From NCBI GenBank assembly GCA_001775395.1, contig MEWP01000010.1:1-34176 (forward strand): DNA of 34,176 bases, read 5' to 3'. Below are positions 3,387 to 34,176 of the stretch, piece after piece; the stretch's first letter is position 1, and each line of letters starts with the position of its first letter. Under the pieces are notes generated by a model. It was not told the DNA's origin. It was given only the letters and a program-made list of their open reading frames with translations, and made no database searches. The position numbers and the translations under genes are program-made. Origin of the DNA: a candidate division Zixibacteria bacterium RBG_16_53_22. Its GTDB lineage: Bacteria > Zixibacteria > MSB-5A5 > UBA10806.

Positions 3387-3585
3387 GGCTATGCCTCTGA
3401 CCCTTTCAGCCACCCGCCATAATATAGCCATGCCTGGCGAATAATCAATGACTTTATCGCGTGAGCCGCCTCGCCTGTTCAAATCATTTTCGCCCGATAA
3501 TTCCGCCTTTGATCAAGCGCCATTGACAGAGACGATATGGAAGTCATGGGAGTACCCAGGCAGAGGTGATGCTGAGGGCAATGCG

Positions 3586-18905: not shown

Positions 18906-20486
18906 ATGCGCAAGTTAAGTGTCGGAATAATCGATCTGGTCGCGAAGGCGCCGACTAAGGCATTCTGGAGCCGCGTCATGAGCCCGAATTTCGCCAGTAT
19001 CATGCCCCAGGTTATCGGCACATGGTGCGAACAAGCGGGGCATGAGGTTTCGCTTGTTTGCTACACCGGCAGGGAGAGCCTCCTCGAAGAACTGCCGGAA
19101 AAAGTCGATATCCTCTTCATCAGCGCTTTCACCCACGCGGCACATCTCGCATATGCATTGAGCAACCTGTTTCGTTCTCGTGGGGCGGTTACGGTAATCG
19201 GCGGGCCCCATGCTCGATGTTATCCGGATGACGCCAAAAGGCATTTCGATTATGTTCTCGGCTTTACCGATGAAACATTAATCCTCGATGTCCTTCGGGA
19301 TTGTACACGGCATCGGCCCGAGGGTATCTGCCTTAGCGCCGGACAGCATCCAAAGCATCTCCCCGGTGTTGAGCAGCGTTGGAGATTCGTTCAGCAAACG
19401 CTTCGAAAAGCGCCATTCTTCAAGATTGTGCCTTTGATCAGCAGTTTGGGATGTCCTTACTCATGCGGATTCTGTATCGATTCATCGGTACCGTACCAGC
19501 CGCTGGATGTCGACATGATTAAGCATGACCTGCGTTTTCTTCTGGGGAAACTCGACCGACCGCATATTGGCTGGCATGATCCCAGCTACGGCGTCCGTTT
19601 CGATGATTGCATGGACGCGATCGAGGAGGCGGTACCCCCCGGCCGAATCGATTTCATCGCCGAGACCACTTTGTCGCTCCTGTCAGAACCGCGGGTGAAA
19701 CGACTCAAGAGAAACGGATTCAAGGCTCTATTGCCGGGTATCGAATCGTGGTATGATTTGGGCAATAAGTCGAGAACGAGCAAGATAACGGGGATGGAAA
19801 AGGTAAAGCAAATTTCCGAGCACGTTAATATGATTTTAAGGCATATTCCATACGTACAAACCAATTTTATCTTTGGGCTAGATATCGACAATGGACCGGA
19901 ACCATTCAGGCTCACCAAGCGTTTTATGGATCTCACACCGGGAGCATTCCCGGCCTATTCGCTGATGTCGGCATTTGGACAGGCGGCGCCTCTTAACCTG
20001 GAATATCAACGGGCCAATCGCATTTTGCCGTTCCCCTTTCATTTCCTCGACAACAATGGCGCTATGAACGTAAGACCATTGAATTATGCCTGGCCCGAAT
20101 TCTACGATCATATTATCGACGTAACCAGGCATTCCTTTTCGCGGCGCATGATTCTGCGCCGCTTTGCCGCCACCGGCGCATGGATTCCGCGATGGCTTAA
20201 TGTCGTGCGCGCAATTTCGTCGGAGGGTTTCGGCAGAATCAGATATTTCGAACAGGTGAGGCAGCGGCTTGACTCCGATCGGCAGTTCAGACGCTTCTTC
20301 GAACAGGAGACTACCGAAATCCCGGGGTTTTTCATTCAGCGGATTCGTCGGGCCCTGGGCCCATTCTGGGAATGGCTGCCGGATGGCGCCTTACACCATA
20401 ATCCAAATGCTTATCTTGAGTCAGCGGAGAAGCAGGAAAAGTTAAGATACTCCGATCCGGCCTATTGCGCGAGATCATCAAGCTAA
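18906..20486 (+). CDS. B12-binding-domain radical SAM protein
   Basis: A 526-residue radical S-adenosylmethionine enzyme. Residues 1-165 form a Rossmann-like cobalamin-binding-type domain (VIGGPHARCYPDD; DYVLGFTDETL). The radical SAM barrel follows, with its 4Fe-4S motif C183-x3-C187-x2-C190 in LGCPYSCGFC. The C-terminal 150 residues are helical, basic and of unknown role. Members of this class methylate unactivated carbons or do ring and C-C chemistry in lipids and natural products. The substrate here is not predictable. AAGG lies about 8 nt before the ATG. It is followed by a fatty acid desaturase gene in the same direction after a 95-bp gap, so a lipid or acyl substrate is a reasonable inference. 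Confidence 0.9.
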   Translation: MRKLSVGIIDLVAKAPTKAFWSRVMSPNFASIMPQVIGTWCEQAGHEVSLVCYTGRESLLEELPEKVDILFISAFTHAAHLAYALSNLFRSRGAVTVIGGPHARCYPDDAKRHFDYVLGFTDETLILDVLRDCTRHRPEGICLSAGQHPKHLPGVEQRWRFVQQTLRKAPFFKIVPLISSLGCPYSCGFCIDSSVPYQPLDVDMIKHDLRFLLGKLDRPHIGWHDPSYGVRFDDCMDAIEEAVPPGRIDFIAETTLSLLSEPRVKRLKRNGFKALLPGIESWYDLGNKSRTSKITGMEKVKQISEHVNMILRHIPYVQTNFIFGLDIDNGPEPFRLTKRFMDLTPGAFPAYSLMSAFGQAAPLNLEYQRANRILPFPFHFLDNNGAMNVRPLNYAWPEFYDHIIDVTRHSFSRRMILRRFAATGAWIPRWLNVVRAISSEGFGRIRYFEQVRQRLDSDRQFRRFFEQETTEIPGFFIQRIRRALGPFWEWLPDGALHHNPNAYLESAEKQEKLRYSDPAYCARSSS

Positions 20487-28192: not shown

Positions 28193-29284
28193 ATGAGTGA
28201 TTCAGCCGGCATAAGCGAATTCGATACCGCCCGCGGCGCCCGACACCCTCGGGCCCATGTAGAGCTTCTCCGAAATTATTTCATTGATCTGATTTCTGTC
28301 CATATGCGTCTGAGAATATTCAAGCCCCTCATCACGAATTTCTATGTGACCCAGAAATGCAACCTGCGCTGCACTTATTGTTATCCGCCGGGTGACGAAC
28401 CCGACAGCGATCTTGCATCCAACATCGCGCTTCTGACGAAGATTCGCCCTCGGAATCCCGTCATTAATTTTACCGGCGGTGAACCGCTTTTATATCCCGA
28501 CATAGTGGAATTGATTAGAAAGGCGCGGGAGTTGCGCTTTTATCCAATACTGTTAAGCACGAACGCGCTTCTAACGGATAAGTTGGAGCAACTGCTGCCC
28601 TTGATTGATCACTTGATAGTCAGCCTCGATTCGATTGAAGAGGAATCCAATGATGCTCTTGCCGGAGTAAGCGGAGCCACCAGGGAAATTCTCGGCAATA
28701 TTGAAAAAAGCGCATTATGGTCACGCCAATATGGTCATCGGATGACGCTGCATTCGGTGATTACCCCGCATAACCTCGATGATATCGCCGGTGTCGTCAA
28801 ACTCAGTGAACTCCTGCATATAACATTCAGCGTATCGCCCCAGCATGGCCGATATCACCCCAATCCGGAACTGCCTGGCAATCCTCGATATATGGCCCTT
28901 GTCGATCATCTAATAGACTTGAAGGGTCGGGGCATGCCGATCGTCTGTTCTTTTGACTACCTCAAGGCAATTCGGGGCTTCCCCAGGCGTCGATGCTACC
29001 CCTTCGTGTCGCCCCGCGTATTTCCCGACGGCAGCGTTTATTTTCCATGCGAAAGAATCAGGGATACTCGATTATTCCTCCATGATTATGATAGTCTGAT
29101 TTCATTGATGCGCAAGCACGCGGAATTTTCATTCAGGCCCGAATGCTCGAGCCGTTGCTACCTTGCCTGCTATGTCGAAGTGGAGCGATATTTGAGAAAT
29201 CCGCTTTCCATATTAAATGAAATCCCCATGTTGCGGATCGTCTCCGGGGCGAGAATCAAGCGCAGGCGCGGCGGCCGGAATTGA
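28193..29284 (+). CDS. Radical SAM protein with SPASM-like cysteine-rich C-terminus
   Basis: A 363-residue radical SAM enzyme. The cluster motif C56-x3-C60-x2-C63 lies in TQKCNLRCTYCYPP, followed by NFTGGEPLLYPDIVELI, the SAM-binding GGEP motif. After the barrel, clustered cysteines (RRRCYPFVSPRVFPDGSVYF, CERI, then CSSRCYLACYVE) suggest a SPASM/twitch-type domain holding an auxiliary iron-sulfur cluster. Such proteins modify peptides, dehydrogenate or form C-C and C-S bonds in cofactors and natural products. AGGGAA lies 7-8 nt before the ATG. It is the first gene of a tight plus-strand operon; the SDR gene starts 10 bp after its stop. No precursor-peptide gene is evident beside it. Confidence 0.92.
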   Translation: MSDSAGISEFDTARGARHPRAHVELLRNYFIDLISVHMRLRIFKPLITNFYVTQKCNLRCTYCYPPGDEPDSDLASNIALLTKIRPRNPVINFTGGEPLLYPDIVELIRKARELRFYPILLSTNALLTDKLEQLLPLIDHLIVSLDSIEEESNDALAGVSGATREILGNIEKSALWSRQYGHRMTLHSVITPHNLDDIAGVVKLSELLHITFSVSPQHGRYHPNPELPGNPRYMALVDHLIDLKGRGMPIVCSFDYLKAIRGFPRRRCYPFVSPRVFPDGSVYFPCERIRDTRLFLHDYDSLISLMRKHAEFSFRPECSSRCYLACYVEVERYLRNPLSILNEIPMLRIVSGARIKRRRGGRN

Positions 29285-29294
29285 GGCTGGAAAT

Positions 29295-30302
29295 ATGGCC
29301 AGGATACTTATCACCGGCGGCACTGGATTCCTGGGATCCCACTTGCTTAAAAGGCTTTCCCGAGGGCGTAACGAGATATTTTGTCTTGCCAGAAGGCCGG
29401 CGGTCTTAGCGAATCGAGGGCGAATAACGTGGATCATCGGTGATATCACGGATCCCTCGTCGTATAAGCGGTTTCTCAAGAAAACAGATTATATTTATCA
29501 CCTGGCGGGAATAGTCAATGCTCGCCGGACCGATCAATATACTCAGGCTAACGTTCTTGGAACGAAAGCCTTGCTCGAGGCCTGTAGTCAGGTCGCGGGG
29601 ACGTTAAAGAGGTTTGTGTATGTCAGCAGCATCGCGGCCATGGGCCCGATATCTCACAAGGGACTTCTTGATGAGACTCTTCCCTGCCATCCTATCACCG
29701 AATATGGGAAAAGCAAGCTCGCGGCCGAAACGGCCGCGCTCGAATACTCAATTGAGTTCCCCCTGGTAATCATCAGGCCGTCATTCATCTACGGCAGAGG
29801 CGATAAACGGGGCCTTTCGATTCTAACATCATTGCTGGCCCATCCGGCGGGAGCATTTAGATCCTCCATCAAGACCATCAGTTTGTGTCATGTGAGCGAT
29901 GTTATTCGATGTTGTCTGCTTGCCGGCTTGAAAAAAATCAGATCGGGCGAGGTCTTTATCGTCTCGGACGGCGAGGTGCATACTTGGGAGAACCTCCGGG
30001 TAATCGTCCATGACATTTGCAGCCGCCTGGGTATAATCGATGTCGAATCCCCGCTTACGATTCGCGCTGATTTCAGTACGTCCGATGATGATCCGCGTGG
30101 CCGCCATTATTGGGGATGCGATATTTCCAAGGTCAAAAGCACTTTGGGATATGAACCCACAATAAGGCTAAAAAATGGCGCTCTTGACACAATTCGCTGG
30201 TACCTTCGCAACGGCCATATAGAAGAGCACAACTCTGTCTTAGAGGGATCGGAATTATCGAATGGAGACAACTATGCCGCGGAAAGTTATCAAACTCGAT
30301 GA
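29295..30302 (+). CDS. Extended SDR NAD(P)-dependent epimerase/dehydrogenase
   Basis: A 335-residue extended short-chain dehydrogenase/reductase. The dinucleotide-binding glycine motif ITGGTGFLGSHLLKRL is at the N-terminus. The catalytic Tyr-Lys pair is Y137 and K141 in EYGKSKLAAE, preceded by the serine region VYVSSIAAMG. The pattern fits 3-beta-hydroxysteroid dehydrogenase, dihydroflavonol reductase or sugar epimerase relatives, acting on a hydroxyl or keto group. The ATG at 29295 gives the correct Rossmann start; an in-frame ATG at 29217 would overlap the radical SAM gene. Its last 29 bp overlap the ACP gene start, so translation is coupled. Within this operon it may reduce or oxidise an ACP-bound intermediate. 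Confidence 0.92.
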   Translation: MARILITGGTGFLGSHLLKRLSRGRNEIFCLARRPAVLANRGRITWIIGDITDPSSYKRFLKKTDYIYHLAGIVNARRTDQYTQANVLGTKALLEACSQVAGTLKRFVYVSSIAAMGPISHKGLLDETLPCHPITEYGKSKLAAETAALEYSIEFPLVIIRPSFIYGRGDKRGLSILTSLLAHPAGAFRSSIKTISLCHVSDVIRCCLLAGLKKIRSGEVFIVSDGEVHTWENLRVIVHDICSRLGIIDVESPLTIRADFSTSDDDPRGRHYWGCDISKVKSTLGYEPTIRLKNGALDTIRWYLRNGHIEEHNSVLEGSELSNGDNYAAESYQTR

Positions 30303-30585
30303 TGGCATTATTCGTCGAGAGATACGAGATTTCATACTGGCCAATTTTCTCCCCCGGGAAAAGGCCGCCACGCTTGGCGATACGGACCTGCTTTTTGAAA
30401 GCGGCATCATAGACTCGGCCGGCGCCATGACCTTGATAGCCCATATTGAGAAGCGATTCGGCCTTCGAATCCCCGACGAAGAGCTTTTCCCGGAAAATTT
30501 CGCCACCATCAAAAAGACCGTGGCCTATATATCGGTCAGGCTCAACGGGTCGAAAACCAAAAAGCCTCGCGAGATCAGGCCATGA
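30274..30585 (+). CDS. Acyl carrier protein
   Basis: A free-standing carrier protein of about 103 residues. The 4'-phosphopantetheine attachment site is S48 in ESGIIDSAGAMTLI, matching the GIIDSLG consensus of discrete secondary-metabolism ACPs. The flanking helices (IRREIRDFILANFL; AHIEKRFGLRIPDEEL) are typical, and a Lys/Arg-rich tail follows. The ATG at 30274 has GGAG 6 nt upstream; an ATG four codons earlier (30262) is less well placed. It overlaps the SDR gene end and its stop overlaps the next start by ATGA. The ACP probably carries the substrate handled by the FkbH-type protein and other operon enzymes. Confidence 0.94.
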   Translation: MPRKVIKLDDGIIRREIRDFILANFLPREKAATLGDTDLLFESGIIDSAGAMTLIAHIEKRFGLRIPDEELFPENFATIKKTVAYISVRLNGSKTKKPREIRP

Positions 30586-31895
30586 AATTACTGCTTATCG
30601 ATCCGGTGACAACATCCGGGGTCCTCGATGTCAGAACCCGCAGGAAGCTGCGCGAGGGAATAGGGTATCCGGGAATCGGCCTCATCACGGTTGCGGCCCT
30701 GACACCGCCCGATATTCGGGTCACGGTTATCGATGAATCTGTCGAGGATATCGATTTGAACTGTCCGGCCGATCTGGTCGGCATCTCGGTCCAGGCGCCG
30801 ATCGCCGCTCATGCCTATAAGTTATCGGCGCACTTTCGCCAAAGAGGCATTCCCACTGTGCTGGGGGGAATCCACGTTTCGCTGAATCCCGATGAGGCAA
30901 TGCCCCACGCAGATTCCATACTTCTGGGCGAAGCCGAGATCACATGGCCTGAACTTATCGAGGATTTCCTGAAGGGAGATCTCAAGAAAATATATAAACC
31001 TGATCGGTTGGCTGATTTGGACAAAACACCCTGTCCCAGGCGCGACCTGCTCGACAAGGATTGCTACCAGTTGCCATCCGTCGTGCAGGCCAGCAAGGGA
31101 TGCCAGTATGGATGTGAATTCTGCTCACTTTACAGCTACCTCGGCCACACCCGCCGGTATCGAGATCCTGTTAGAGTCGCCGACGAGATAAGGGGGCTTG
31201 ACGGCGACTTATTCCTCTTCGCTGATGACAATATCTATTCCAGCCGAAAATATTCAATAAACCTTTTCAAGACCATATTGGACTGCCGGAAGCGCTGGGT
31301 CGCGGAATCGACCTGGCATATCGCTTTCGACAATGAAGCCCTTACCTGGGCCAGCCGCAGCGGCTGCGTCGGGCTCTTCATCGGTTTCGATACTATAAAC
31401 CAGCAACCCTATATCACAAAAGTCCCCAAGTCGGATGAGGTCGAAGATATTTACATCCGAGCCATCAGGAATATTCAATCCCATGGGATTGCCGTGGTGG
31501 CGGCGTTCGTATTCGGCCTTGACAACGATGACGAATCGGTATTCGAGCGTTCGCTCCGCGTCGTCCGAGAGGGTGGGGCGAACCTGGTAAATTTCAGCGC
31601 TCTCGTTCCGTATCCCGGGACCCCCATCTTCCAACGCCTGGACGCGCAAGGGCGTATCACCGAACGGGATTGGTCGAAATACATCAGCCCCAACGTATGT
31701 TATGAACCCGGCAAGATGAGCCGCTCTGGTTTGGAGGCGGGGATTCGTTGGGCGCAATCCGAATTTTATACCATGGGCAATATTTTACACGTTTCCTGGG
31801 AAACCTTCAAGAAGCTCGGCTGGGCTATGGCACTCCTTTCGTTGCAGCTCAACATGAGCCAAAAGAGAAACTGGGGCAAAGGGAGCGCCAGATAG
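30582..31895 (+). CDS. B12-binding-domain radical SAM protein
   Basis: A 437-residue cobalamin-binding-type radical SAM enzyme. Residues 1-140 form the B12-like domain (LLLIDPVTTSGV; PTVLGGIHVSLNPDEAMPHA; LLGEAEITWPELI). The 4Fe-4S motif is C174-x3-C178-x2-C181 in SKGCQYGCEFCSLY. The barrel continues through LFLFADDNIYSS and VAAFVFGLDNDDES to LVPYPGTPIFQRL, and a short helical tail follows. Members of this class perform methylations, oxidative rearrangements and ring formation. The start overlaps the ACP stop (ATGA), so expression is coupled and the substrate may be ACP-bound. Confidence 0.92.
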   Translation: MKLLLIDPVTTSGVLDVRTRRKLREGIGYPGIGLITVAALTPPDIRVTVIDESVEDIDLNCPADLVGISVQAPIAAHAYKLSAHFRQRGIPTVLGGIHVSLNPDEAMPHADSILLGEAEITWPELIEDFLKGDLKKIYKPDRLADLDKTPCPRRDLLDKDCYQLPSVVQASKGCQYGCEFCSLYSYLGHTRRYRDPVRVADEIRGLDGDLFLFADDNIYSSRKYSINLFKTILDCRKRWVAESTWHIAFDNEALTWASRSGCVGLFIGFDTINQQPYITKVPKSDEVEDIYIRAIRNIQSHGIAVVAAFVFGLDNDDESVFERSLRVVREGGANLVNFSALVPYPGTPIFQRLDAQGRITERDWSKYISPNVCYEPGKMSRSGLEAGIRWAQSEFYTMGNILHVSWETFKKLGWAMALLSLQLNMSQKRNWGKGSAR

Positions 31896-31913
31896 CCGGT
31901 GGAGGTGCAATCT

Positions 31914-32954
31914 ATGGTTCGGCCTATAAAATGCCTTATCTGGGATCTCGATAATACGCTTTGGGACGGCACCTTGATGGAGGGCGATCCTTGCATCATA
32001 AAGCCGGGGCTGAAGAGCGTTTTGAAGAGACTGGACGGACGTGGCATTCTTCATTCTATCGCCAGCAAGAATGACCCGGCGCCGGCCCTGCGGCTTCTGA
32101 AAAAAAAGGGGGTCGACCGACTCTTCCTCCACCCCCAAATCGGCTGGATTAGCAAGCCCGCAAGCATCCAGAATATCGCAAATAAGCTCAATATTGACCT
32201 GGATTCGGTCGGTTTTATCGACGACGAACCCTATGAATTGGAGCAGGTCCGAAAACTGTTGCCCCAGGTCCGAGTATACAATTCGCGGGAATGTCTCGAT
32301 CTGCCGCGCCGCCCCGAATTAAATCCGCCGTTTATGACCGATGAATCAACCAGGCGGCGACAAATGTACCAGCAGGAGGCAAGGAAGAGTCAAATTCGCA
32401 GGAGCTCGGGAATGTCGCAGAAGGAATTCCTGAAGTTCTGTCGAATGAAGATGACGATCAGGATCGCCCGAAATGATGATATGGACAGGATCATGGAATT
32501 GATGCACCGGGCACATCAGATGAATGCGACCGGGATCATTTACAGCAGCCGACAGGTCAGTTCCTTCATATCGGACCCCCGCTACCGTCTTTATGTGGTC
32601 GAATTAAGAGACCGCTTCGTTGATTATGGCAAAGTCGGGCTGGCAATCTGCAATCTGAATGATCGGAAATGGCAGCTTAAATCATTCTTGCTGTCATGCC
32701 GTGTTTTGAGCCGGGGGATCGCATTTATATTCATTTTGTGGCTTCAAAATCAGGCGTTTAAGTCGGGCGCCGCCGAGATCGAGGGTATATACAAAAAACG
32801 TCCAAGGAATCGTCGCATGTTGATGCTTTATCGTCTCTCGGGTTTCAAGCCATCGGAAGGGAACGGCAACGGCACTCAGATTTTCAGGGCACGATGCAAA
32901 AAGAAATTCAAGGTCCCGGAATGGCTCACCTTGAAGGAAGCAGGCCATTTATGA
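31914..32954 (+). CDS. FkbH-type HAD-IIIC/GNAT protein (putative glyceryl-ACP synthase)
   Basis: FkbH-family proteins take 1,3-bisphosphoglycerate, remove its phosphate and load glycerate on an ACP to give glyceryl-S-ACP. This 346-residue protein has the compact FkbH layout. HAD motif I is WDLDNTLWDG with the D11/D13 pair, motif II/III is IASKND, and motif IV is FIDDEPYE. From about residue 155 a GNAT-like acyltransferase domain follows with the family segment KSFLLSCRVLSRGIAF. It ends with RLSGFKP and a basic tail. GGAGGTG stands 6 nt before the ATG at 31914; a GTG at 31899 is weaker. It lies two genes after the ACP and overlaps the next radical SAM gene by ATGA. Glycerate loading is inferred from family membership. 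Confidence 0.9.
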   Translation: MVRPIKCLIWDLDNTLWDGTLMEGDPCIIKPGLKSVLKRLDGRGILHSIASKNDPAPALRLLKKKGVDRLFLHPQIGWISKPASIQNIANKLNIDLDSVGFIDDEPYELEQVRKLLPQVRVYNSRECLDLPRRPELNPPFMTDESTRRRQMYQQEARKSQIRRSSGMSQKEFLKFCRMKMTIRIARNDDMDRIMELMHRAHQMNATGIIYSSRQVSSFISDPRYRLYVVELRDRFVDYGKVGLAICNLNDRKWQLKSFLLSCRVLSRGIAFIFILWLQNQAFKSGAAEIEGIYKKRPRNRRMLMLYRLSGFKPSEGNGNGTQIFRARCKKKFKVPEWLTLKEAGHL

Positions 32955-34176
32955 AGACTGTGCGAATATTGCTGATCGATGTCAATCGCGTCAGCCTTAA
33001 TACGTCAGTTGACATGCTCGAGTACCCCCTGGGCCTCATGTATGTCGGCACATCCTTGAAAGATGTTTTCGGCGATCAAGTTGACATCAGAATTGAATCG
33101 TATGAGGATAAACCCGGCTCCCTGGCCCAGGTCGGCGAACTTATCGAAGATTTCAGGCCGGATATCGTCGGCCTTCGCAGCCTGACTATGGGGCGCAAAC
33201 CGCTGCATCAAATCGCGGATATGGCCAAGAAAGACTACGGCGTACCATTGGTGTTAGCCGGAGGCCCCCACGCATCGGACAATCCCGGTGATATCATCGC
33301 CAATCCCTCATTCGATTGCGCGGTAATCGGCGAGGGCGAACAAACCGCCGTCGACATCGTCGCGGCCTACGTATCGAACATGTCCCTTGACAATATCCCC
33401 GGAGTTGCCGTTGGATCATCCAATGGGTGCCATATCGCATGCCGCAGGCAACCTATTGCCGCTCTCGATACTCTGCCGATGCCCAACTACGGCCTGGTAG
33501 ACTTTCTGGGTATCAACGGCGGCCGTGTTGACTTTTCATTTCGCTTCAATGCCCGCCATGCCAATCTATTCACATCGCGGGGCTGCCCCTACCGGTGCAT
33601 CTACTGCCACCAGATATTCGGCAAGCGCTTTCGCGCGCATTCGCCGGATAGAATAATGGCGGAAATCAGGATGCTATATGACGACTACGGCATAAGCAGC
33701 TTTCAAATAATCGATGATATATTTAATATCGACCGCCGCCGCGCCCTGGAGGTCTTCGACAGAATTGTCCGGGCCGGTTATCGCCTCGAGATTTCGTTCC
33801 CCAACGGTATTCGGGGTGACGTTGTCGATGATGAGATGGTGGACGCCATGTGGCAGGCCGGTGTGCGCTACATTGCATATGCCATCGAAAGCGGTTCGCC
33901 GCGTATCCAGAAGCTGATCCATAAGAACCTGCGTCTCGATCGCATATCGCGGGCCATTTCGCTGAGCACGGCCCGCGGCATTCTGACCCGCGGCTTCTTC
34001 ATGATCGGGTTCCCTACCGAAACGGAGGAAGAAGCCATGATGACAATCGACTATGCCAAGGACAGCGACCTCACCATGGCGATGTTCTTTACGGTTCTTT
34101 ATTTCCCCGGCACGCCGCTTTTTCGCCTGGCTCAGAGCCTTGGCAAGATATGCGATTATGATTTTGCCCTCGAAGA
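32951..34176 (+). CDS. B12-binding-domain radical SAM protein, cut by window end
   Basis: 408 codons are present and the frame is still open at 34176. Residues 1-150 form the cobalamin-binding-type domain (VRILLIDVNRVSLN; PDIVGLRSLTMG; VLAGGPHASDNP; CAVIGEGEQTA). The 4Fe-4S motif is C212-x3-C216-x2-C219 in SRGCPYRCIYCHQ. The barrel continues with FQIIDDIFNIDRRRALEVF, YIAYAIESGSPRIQKLI, and FFMIGFPTETEEEAMMTID. LYFPGTPLFRLA marks the barrel end, so only the C-terminal extension is missing. Its ATG overlaps the FkbH-type stop (ATGA). It is the third B12-radical SAM gene of the window and most resembles the class found in lipid, hopanoid and natural product pathways. Confidence 0.93.
   Translation, partial: MKTVRILLIDVNRVSLNTSVDMLEYPLGLMYVGTSLKDVFGDQVDIRIESYEDKPGSLAQVGELIEDFRPDIVGLRSLTMGRKPLHQIADMAKKDYGVPLVLAGGPHASDNPGDIIANPSFDCAVIGEGEQTAVDIVAAYVSNMSLDNIPGVAVGSSNGCHIACRRQPIAALDTLPMPNYGLVDFLGINGGRVDFSFRFNARHANLFTSRGCPYRCIYCHQIFGKRFRAHSPDRIMAEIRMLYDDYGISSFQIIDDIFNIDRRRALEVFDRIVRAGYRLEISFPNGIRGDVVDDEMVDAMWQAGVRYIAYAIESGSPRIQKLIHKNLRLDRISRAISLSTARGILTRGFFMIGFPTETEEEAMMTIDYAKDSDLTMAMFFTVLYFPGTPLFRLAQSLGKICDYDFALE

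Follow-up and report, generated by a model that had tools for sequence, protein, structure and literature searches.

The 34,176-bp stretch of DNA analysed here (the window) is a whole contig of candidate division Zixibacteria bacterium RBG_16_53_22, and its final portion carries six genes that bring together a free-standing acyl carrier protein (ACP), a compact FkbH protein and three radical S-adenosylmethionine (SAM) enzymes. FkbH proteins are known for providing polyketide and peptide assembly lines with glyceryl units. On sequence evidence, the FkbH of this operon serves neither a polyketide synthase (PKS) nor a nonribosomal peptide synthetase (NRPS). The reading we prefer, with somewhat less than even confidence, is a carrier-protein pathway independent of PKS and NRPS that would lead from glycerate, by methylation and carbamoylation, to the head group of a membrane lipid. 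We infer both the identity of this product and the order of the steps from the genes present.

A conserved operon core

A scan with the window FkbH at one genome per species returned 80 relatives, and many of their loci carry very large open reading frames (ORFs) of PKS or NRPS size. A five-gene core, encoding an ACP, FkbH, the B12-radical SAM protein rsamC, a methyltransferase (MT) and a carbamoyltransferase (CTase) in this order, is present in 11 genomes from three lineages. These are the window phylum (the window genome, G000, and G073), Krumholzibacteriota (the Krumholzibacteriia bacterium of locus L057, and G195) and an Ignavibacteriaceae bacterium (L064) together with relatives from its class (G458, G527, G273, G244, G320 and G224). 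In L057 the ACP, FkbH, rsamC and MT genes are followed by CTase, a short-chain dehydrogenase/reductase (SDR) and a PAP2_3 phosphatase/phosphotransferase; in L064 the contig edge falls within the MT gene. G195 and the six class relatives, identified by searches around these two loci, all carry ACP-FkbH-rsamC-MT-CTase-SDR in a single direction. The distribution is patchy, with two of 132 genomes in the window phylum, two of 80 in the Krumholzibacteriota search and seven of 391 in the third search. The MT frame of L064 (3345-4080) seems to be shifted near 3530-3548 and lies in two pieces, which may reflect a sequencing error or a broken gene in this metagenome-assembled genome.

The FkbH search of the window phylum gave one close relative, with 51% identity, in G073, a complete genome from the class of the window genome. 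Its genes run SDR, ACP, rsamB, FkbH, rsamC, MT, CTase, a 1410-amino acid BcrAD/BadFG-DUF2229 protein, a YegS-type lipid kinase and a CDP-alcohol phosphatidyltransferase. The SDR gene is cut by a scaffold gap of 100 N, and the position corresponding to rsamA, the first of the six window genes, falls in that gap. Because the same genes occur in the same order in this independent complete genome, and the core in nine further genomes, the arrangement is more than chance.

Trees of FkbH, rsamC and CTase agree on the main groups. The rsamC proteins of the core operons form a single clade (support 1.0), and the core CTases form one clade (0.98) apart from the other CTases of the window phylum. The FkbH tree separates the core sequences from the PKS-associated clade with moderate support (88/59); G000 and G073 group together at 99/100, and the other nine core sequences at 93/85. 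Conserved order and concordant trees support the view, already taken in the original prediction, that these co-inherited genes form one operon and would encode one pathway. That prediction also looked to co-occurrence of all six window genes in relatives. Gene order is indeed conserved, but the broad core takes only ACP, FkbH and rsamC from the window and adds MT and CTase from beyond it. Similarly, of the three radical SAM genes first regarded as a unit, rsamC is a core gene, but rsamA and rsamB were seen only in the window lineage.

The genes rsamA, rsamB and SDR lie outside the shared core. Nearly all core operons come with an SDR; the other lineages, however, pair the core with different SDRs and, mostly, with different second radical SAM genes, and the window SDR does not hold up as a gene of the shared unit. 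Most Ignavibacteria-type operons have another B12-radical SAM gene nearby, which was considered as an rsamB ortholog and dropped when the tree placed it in a distinct clade. That the lineages differ in the SDR and, mostly, in the second radical SAM joined to these five genes suggests a shared need for one type of step.

A Candidatus Scalindua locus (L106) was rejected as a relative of the operon, the B12-radical SAM beside its FkbH being only 26% identical to rsamC and lying in a PKS cluster. At L106:100-5466 a methoxymalonyl-type operon (3-hydroxyacyl dehydrogenase, ACP, acyl-CoA dehydrogenase and FkbH) is followed by this different B12-radical SAM gene, upstream of the PKS. A second FkbH-ACP arrangement free of PKS occurs at L191:207-3359 and L192:7678-10822 (genomes G149 and G157), outside the core FkbH clade, in the order left-handed beta-helix acyltransferase-like protein, FkbH, ACP and an unidentified protein of 431 amino acids.

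Predicted glyceryl loading without an assembly line

The FkbH gene (31899-32954, plus strand) matches TIGR01686 at 240.7 bits (cut-off 146.65) over residues 10-317, which span the HAD and transferase domains. Residues D16, D18, K86, D108, D109 and C267 are conserved in 91-93 of 93 alignment rows, and C267 is probably the acyl-accepting cysteine. Formation of glyceryl-ACP by FkbH proteins is established biochemistry (PMC7489565); with the invariant Cys267 and the HAD residues intact, glyceryl-ACP is the expected first product here.

Seven core genomes were searched whole. Each encodes one or two FabF-sized ketosynthases (frames of about 420-455 amino acids); further ketosynthase matches are weak and lie in frames of at most 558 amino acids. 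Neither a PKS-sized ketosynthase nor an NRPS condensation domain was found in any of the seven, so the lack of PKS and NRPS first noted at the locus extends to whole genomes.

Continuation beyond the contig end

The window contig (C10) is one of 169 in its genome and ends inside the sixth gene, rsamC. The operon had been expected to run on, and its continuation appears to lie on another contig of that genome, designated C45. This contig opens on the C-terminal 28 amino acids of an rsamC protein, of which 18 match G073. Behind them, with tiny gaps or overlaps, come the genes for MT, CTase, the large BcrAD/BadFG protein and the lipid kinase, and then the beginning of the CDP-alcohol transferase gene. 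The CTase at the start of C45 is the best G000 match to the G073 CTase (53% identity, 704 bits; the next match scores 416 bits). About 69 codons of rsamC (about 0.2 kb) are unsequenced between the two contigs. Joined in this way, the operon would comprise 11 genes, with the first half in the window.

Carbamoyltransferase and lipid genes

The G073 CTase matches the Carbam_trans N and C domains at 172.9 and 235.8 bits, and that of G000 scores 333.7 bits to novobiocin carbamoyltransferase and 331.8 to GdmN. The BcrAD/BadFG-DUF2229 protein that follows (1405 amino acids in G000, 1410 in G073) has two BcrAD_BadFG activase domains and a DUF2229 domain, a layout that is non-specific, being common to related uncharacterised proteins. 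Bacterial plasmalogen synthase (PlsA/PlsR) is encoded by a single ORF of about 4.2 kb and belongs to the BCR/HAD family (PMC12838417). The operon protein is alike in size and domain layout, and it is in this sense, rather than by direct comparison with the C. perfringens or E. faecalis enzymes, that it is called PlsAR-like. It is a diverged paralog, with 42% identity between G000 and G073 and 31-35% to most other, class-wide copies. No lipid kinase or CDP transferase adjoins the class-wide paralogs in the eight regions examined.

The lipid kinase scores 170 bits to the YegS model (cut-off 118.65). The CDP-alcohol phosphotransferase matches solved structures of phosphatidylinositol-phosphate synthase (PIPS); the G073 protein scores 115.7 bits (cut-off 180) and 104.6 bits (cut-off 170) to the PIPS/AIPS models, which marks it as a relative of these families and not a member. 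In G000 as in G073, the three lipid-related genes run in one direction with very little space between them. In L057 a PAP2_3 lipid-type gene, unrelated to those of G000 and G073, overlaps the operon end.

A proposed pathway and its alternatives

In the proposed pathway, FkbH would take 1,3-bisphosphoglycerate, remove the phosphate and transfer the D-glyceryl unit to the ACP, a prediction that draws on a well-studied family and intact residues. The MT may then methylate the ACP-bound unit, most simply as an O-methyl on a glyceryl hydroxyl, and rsamC may act on the carrier-bound unit, likeliest as a C-methyltransferase in the manner of CysS on carrier-bound methoxy groups. The CTase, of the NodU/GdmN/TobZ type, would O-carbamoylate a free hydroxyl; the family is well supported, and the substrate is conjectural. 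The extended SDR might adjust the oxidation state or release the unit. In the window lineage, rsamA and rsamB would modify the unit further, and the lipid kinase, the PIPS-like CDP-alcohol phosphotransferase and the plasmalogen-synthase-like reductase would attach it to a phospholipid and remodel it.

A lipid head group is favoured with moderate confidence for the window lineage because the lipid kinase, the CDP-alcohol transferase and the PlsAR-like paralog lie in the G000/G073 operon, and PAP2_3 in that of L057. A glycerolipid was among the products guessed at in the original prediction, and the downstream lipid genes lend support to it; the product itself is deduced from genes and unproven. 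Glycerate has a precedent in lipid head groups in the glyceroyl-alkylamine phosphoglycolipids of Deinococcus and Thermus. These lipids, however, have no demonstrated gene link to the operon and no known carbamoyl or B12-radical SAM chemistry.

Several observations weigh against this interpretation. The adjacency of C10 and C45 is deduced from synteny and the split gene, without sequence overlap. The lipid genes are confined to the G000/G073 version of the operon, and several Ignavibacteria-type operons continue instead with genes for an ATPase and a weakly DevC-like ABC permease. No acyltransferase was recognised that could pass the acyl group on to a lipid. The window SDR and the SDRs of the other lineages' operons fall in separate clades and are non-orthologous, and the window gene was accordingly dropped as an ortholog of the L057-type SDR. 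Finally, the likeness of rsamC to the diol dehydratase AprD4 leaves methylation uncertain.

The presence of an ABC transporter in place of lipid genes suggests that the product of the core may be soluble or exported. The same carrier-bound chemistry would then yield a small metabolite (a signal, osmolyte or antimicrobial), with the lipid genes a local addition or serving export. Recurrence of the core plus an SDR alone across lineages, the weakly DevC-like permease and ATPase, and the patchy distribution are consistent with this explanation, as is O-carbamoylation beside a methoxy group, a feature typical of geldanamycin, novobiocin and other antibiotics. However, the tight co-directional packing of the three lipid genes in both G000 and G073 and the unrelated PAP2_3 gene overlapping the L057 operon end speak for a lipid, and DevC-type exporters can carry glycolipids too. 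We consider a soluble product unlikely, though the strongest rival of the lipid head group.

The second alternative concerns the chemistry of rsamC, which carries a CPYRCIYC motif with three invariant cysteines (the CxxxCxxC radical SAM motif). AprD4 is a radical SAM diol dehydratase paired with a reductase (PMC5461906), and since the glyceryl unit is a diol, an AprD4-like role is a serious alternative to methylation. Here rsamC, with the SDR in the place of AprD3, would deoxygenate glyceryl-ACP; in a variant, the PlsAR-like protein would dehydrate glyceryl-ACP instead of reducing a lipid ester. AprD4 is the best solved-structure sequence match of rsamC (73.6 bits) and ranks high in the fold search, an SDR stands with nearly every core operon, deoxygenation by AprD4 with AprD3 has been described (PMC5461906), and a glyceryl thioester is both a 2-hydroxyacyl thioester and a 1,2-diol, the PlsAR-like protein belonging to the 2-hydroxyacyl-CoA dehydratase superfamily. 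Against this, full-length G073 rsamC scores higher to the NCBIfam models of ApyD (143.8) and BchE (140.2) than to that of AprD4 (75.2). A structure model of the same protein (mean predicted local distance difference test score 79.7) has TsrM and MgmA at the top of the fold search, with AprD4, CysS, TokK and OxsB also found. The other lineages lack the PlsAR-like gene in their core, so it cannot provide a general step. Dehydration in either form seems improbable. The most likely role of rsamC is that of a C-methyltransferase acting on the carrier-bound unit, our leading guess because CysS, a fold relative, was solved with pantetheinylated methoxy substrates. The CysS/TokK-type B12-radical SAM methyltransferases share the fold of rsamC and, going by PDB titles, have pantetheinylated or carrier-type compounds as substrates; their identity to rsamC is about 16-18%.

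A third possibility, which we also rate as improbable, is decoration of an envelope polysaccharide, one of whose sugars would receive a glyceryl-derived group from the ACP. Epimerase-type extended SDRs and NodU-type carbamoyltransferases often act on sugars, and the Krumholzibacteriota FkbH-ACP pairs of L191 and L192 adjoin, by eye, a left-handed beta-helix acyltransferase-like protein, in L192 together with glycosyltransferase-like genes. However, the FkbH proteins of these pairs lie outside the core clade, and the core operons have no recognised glycosyltransferase or membrane acyltransferase. A cryptic operon supplying methoxymalonyl-ACP extender units to a PKS elsewhere, for which FkbH, ACP, dehydrogenase and MT are the pathway ingredients (PMC7489565), is very improbable and was dropped, given seven host genomes without a PKS-sized ketosynthase or condensation domain, no recognised acyl-CoA or 3-hydroxyacyl-CoA dehydrogenase in the operon and an FkbH outside the PKS-associated clade.

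Comparison with characterised systems

No characterised system matching the operon was found in the literature or families searched, in keeping with the initial impression that this is not a known cluster type; the families are known and the novelty lies in their combination. Literature searches on FkbH or glyceryl-ACP with radical SAM, on FkbH with lipids, and on CTase with radical SAM and HAD-IIIC found nothing relevant.

The methoxymalonyl- and hydroxymalonyl-ACP pathways (FkbG-K, Mad11-15), in which glyceryl-ACP is the predicted first intermediate (PMC7489565), resemble the operon in the compact FkbH, free-standing ACP, dehydrogenase-type and MT genes. The operon differs in having a B12-radical SAM and a CTase in place of the acyl-CoA and 3-hydroxyacyl dehydrogenases; neither dehydrogenase was recognised in the operon of any lineage, and both are present in FkbH clusters such as L050. 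Its hosts also lack a PKS in the genome, and its FkbH falls in a separate clade. The tetronate glycerate-utilisation operon (Mad7-Mad8 type) shares an FkbH and a stand-alone ACP that make glyceryl-ACP (PMC7489565), but the window operon is without the FabH-like tetronate synthase, the acyltransferase/dehydratase pair and the polyketide. Neither a FabH-like condensing enzyme nor polyketide genes were recognised in the core operons. The suomilide/banyaside loading module (FkbH-peptidyl carrier protein-O-methyltransferase-sulfotransferase) shares a carrier-bound glycerate that is predicted to be O-methylated and hydroxyl-capped (PMC13122637). There the unit is sulfated and starts an NRPS, whereas the operon has no NRPS, a predicted carbamoyl cap and an added B12-radical SAM. 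Among precedents for the steps proposed after loading, the suomilide glycerate comes closest.

The remaining genes of the window

The six ORFs are all on the plus strand, and Pfam and NCBIfam scans together with ORF coordinates bear out the families and overlaps first described: ATGA overlaps at 30582 and 32951, and a 29-bp SDR/ACP overlap from the ACP start at 30274. The accessory gene rsamA (28193-29284, 363 amino acids) encodes a radical SAM protein with a CNLRCTYC motif (Pfam Radical_SAM, 63.7 bits); its best NCBIfam match, TIGR03961, at 98.6 bits is far under the cut-off of that model. Its description as SPASM-like is borne out only in part, in that the C-terminus has cysteine-rich clusters but no Pfam SPASM match in the family scan. 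No relative was found at E 1e-6 among the compared loci, and rsamA was seen in the window genome only.

The extended SDR (29295-30302, 335 amino acids) is a dehydrogenase/epimerase-type oxidoreductase (Pfam Epimerase, 116.8 bits), 38% identical to its G073 partner over the surviving 142 amino acids. Its start was placed at 29217, but the ATG at 29295, 10 bp past rsamA, is most likely correct, because a glycine-rich nucleotide motif directly follows it. The free-standing ACP (30274-30585; Pfam PP-binding, 36.6 bits) has its phosphopantetheine serine in GIIDSAGA (DS motif) and is 60% identical to that of G073 and 38-40% to those of the core operons L057 and L064. The core gene rsamC (32951-34176) is present for the first 408 of about 507 amino acids, scores 54.2 bits for B12-binding (cut-off 32.1) and 75 bits for Radical_SAM, and is 59% identical to the G073 protein over residues 3-410 of the latter.

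The lineage accessory gene rsamB (30582-31895, 437 amino acids) encodes a B12-binding-type radical SAM protein with a CQYGCEFC motif (Radical_SAM, 35 bits), its B12-binding score of 28.3 bits falling under the cut-off of 32.1. It is common only to the window genome and G073 (59-62% identity). A search of 58 relatives with rsamB found homologs in other contexts only, which makes it a poor marker, and plasmid searches with rsamA, rsamB and rsamC returned single relatives and not the operon. A further radical SAM-like ORF in the window (18906-20486, plus strand, 526 amino acids from the first start) is 26% identical to rsamB over part of its length. On a mobilizable plasmid of Citrobacter portucalensis (NZ_CP134684.1; L044:14072-26167), five rsamB-like B12-radical SAM genes occur with a fatty acid desaturase, a GNAT protein, a PAP2 phosphatase and a GH3-family protein, and the cluster looks like an undescribed lipid-type pathway. 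At L030:3242-9749 (G021) a GNAT-like protein precedes two B12-radical SAM genes; by eye, the same GNAT type stands beside the G195 core operon (L190:163-1323).

Significance

As a tentative proposal, the operon may represent a new class of PKS/NRPS-independent pathway, in which glyceryl-ACP would be tailored by B12-radical SAM, MT and CTase and then become a membrane-lipid head group, with a patchy presence in at least three little-studied lineages. If so, through an FkbH/ACP pair that works without PKS or NRPS, carrier-protein chemistry would reach a new class of products. Should the link to lipids prove right, the operon would also supply candidate genes for making a bacterial membrane lipid that is carbamoylated and derived from glycerate.

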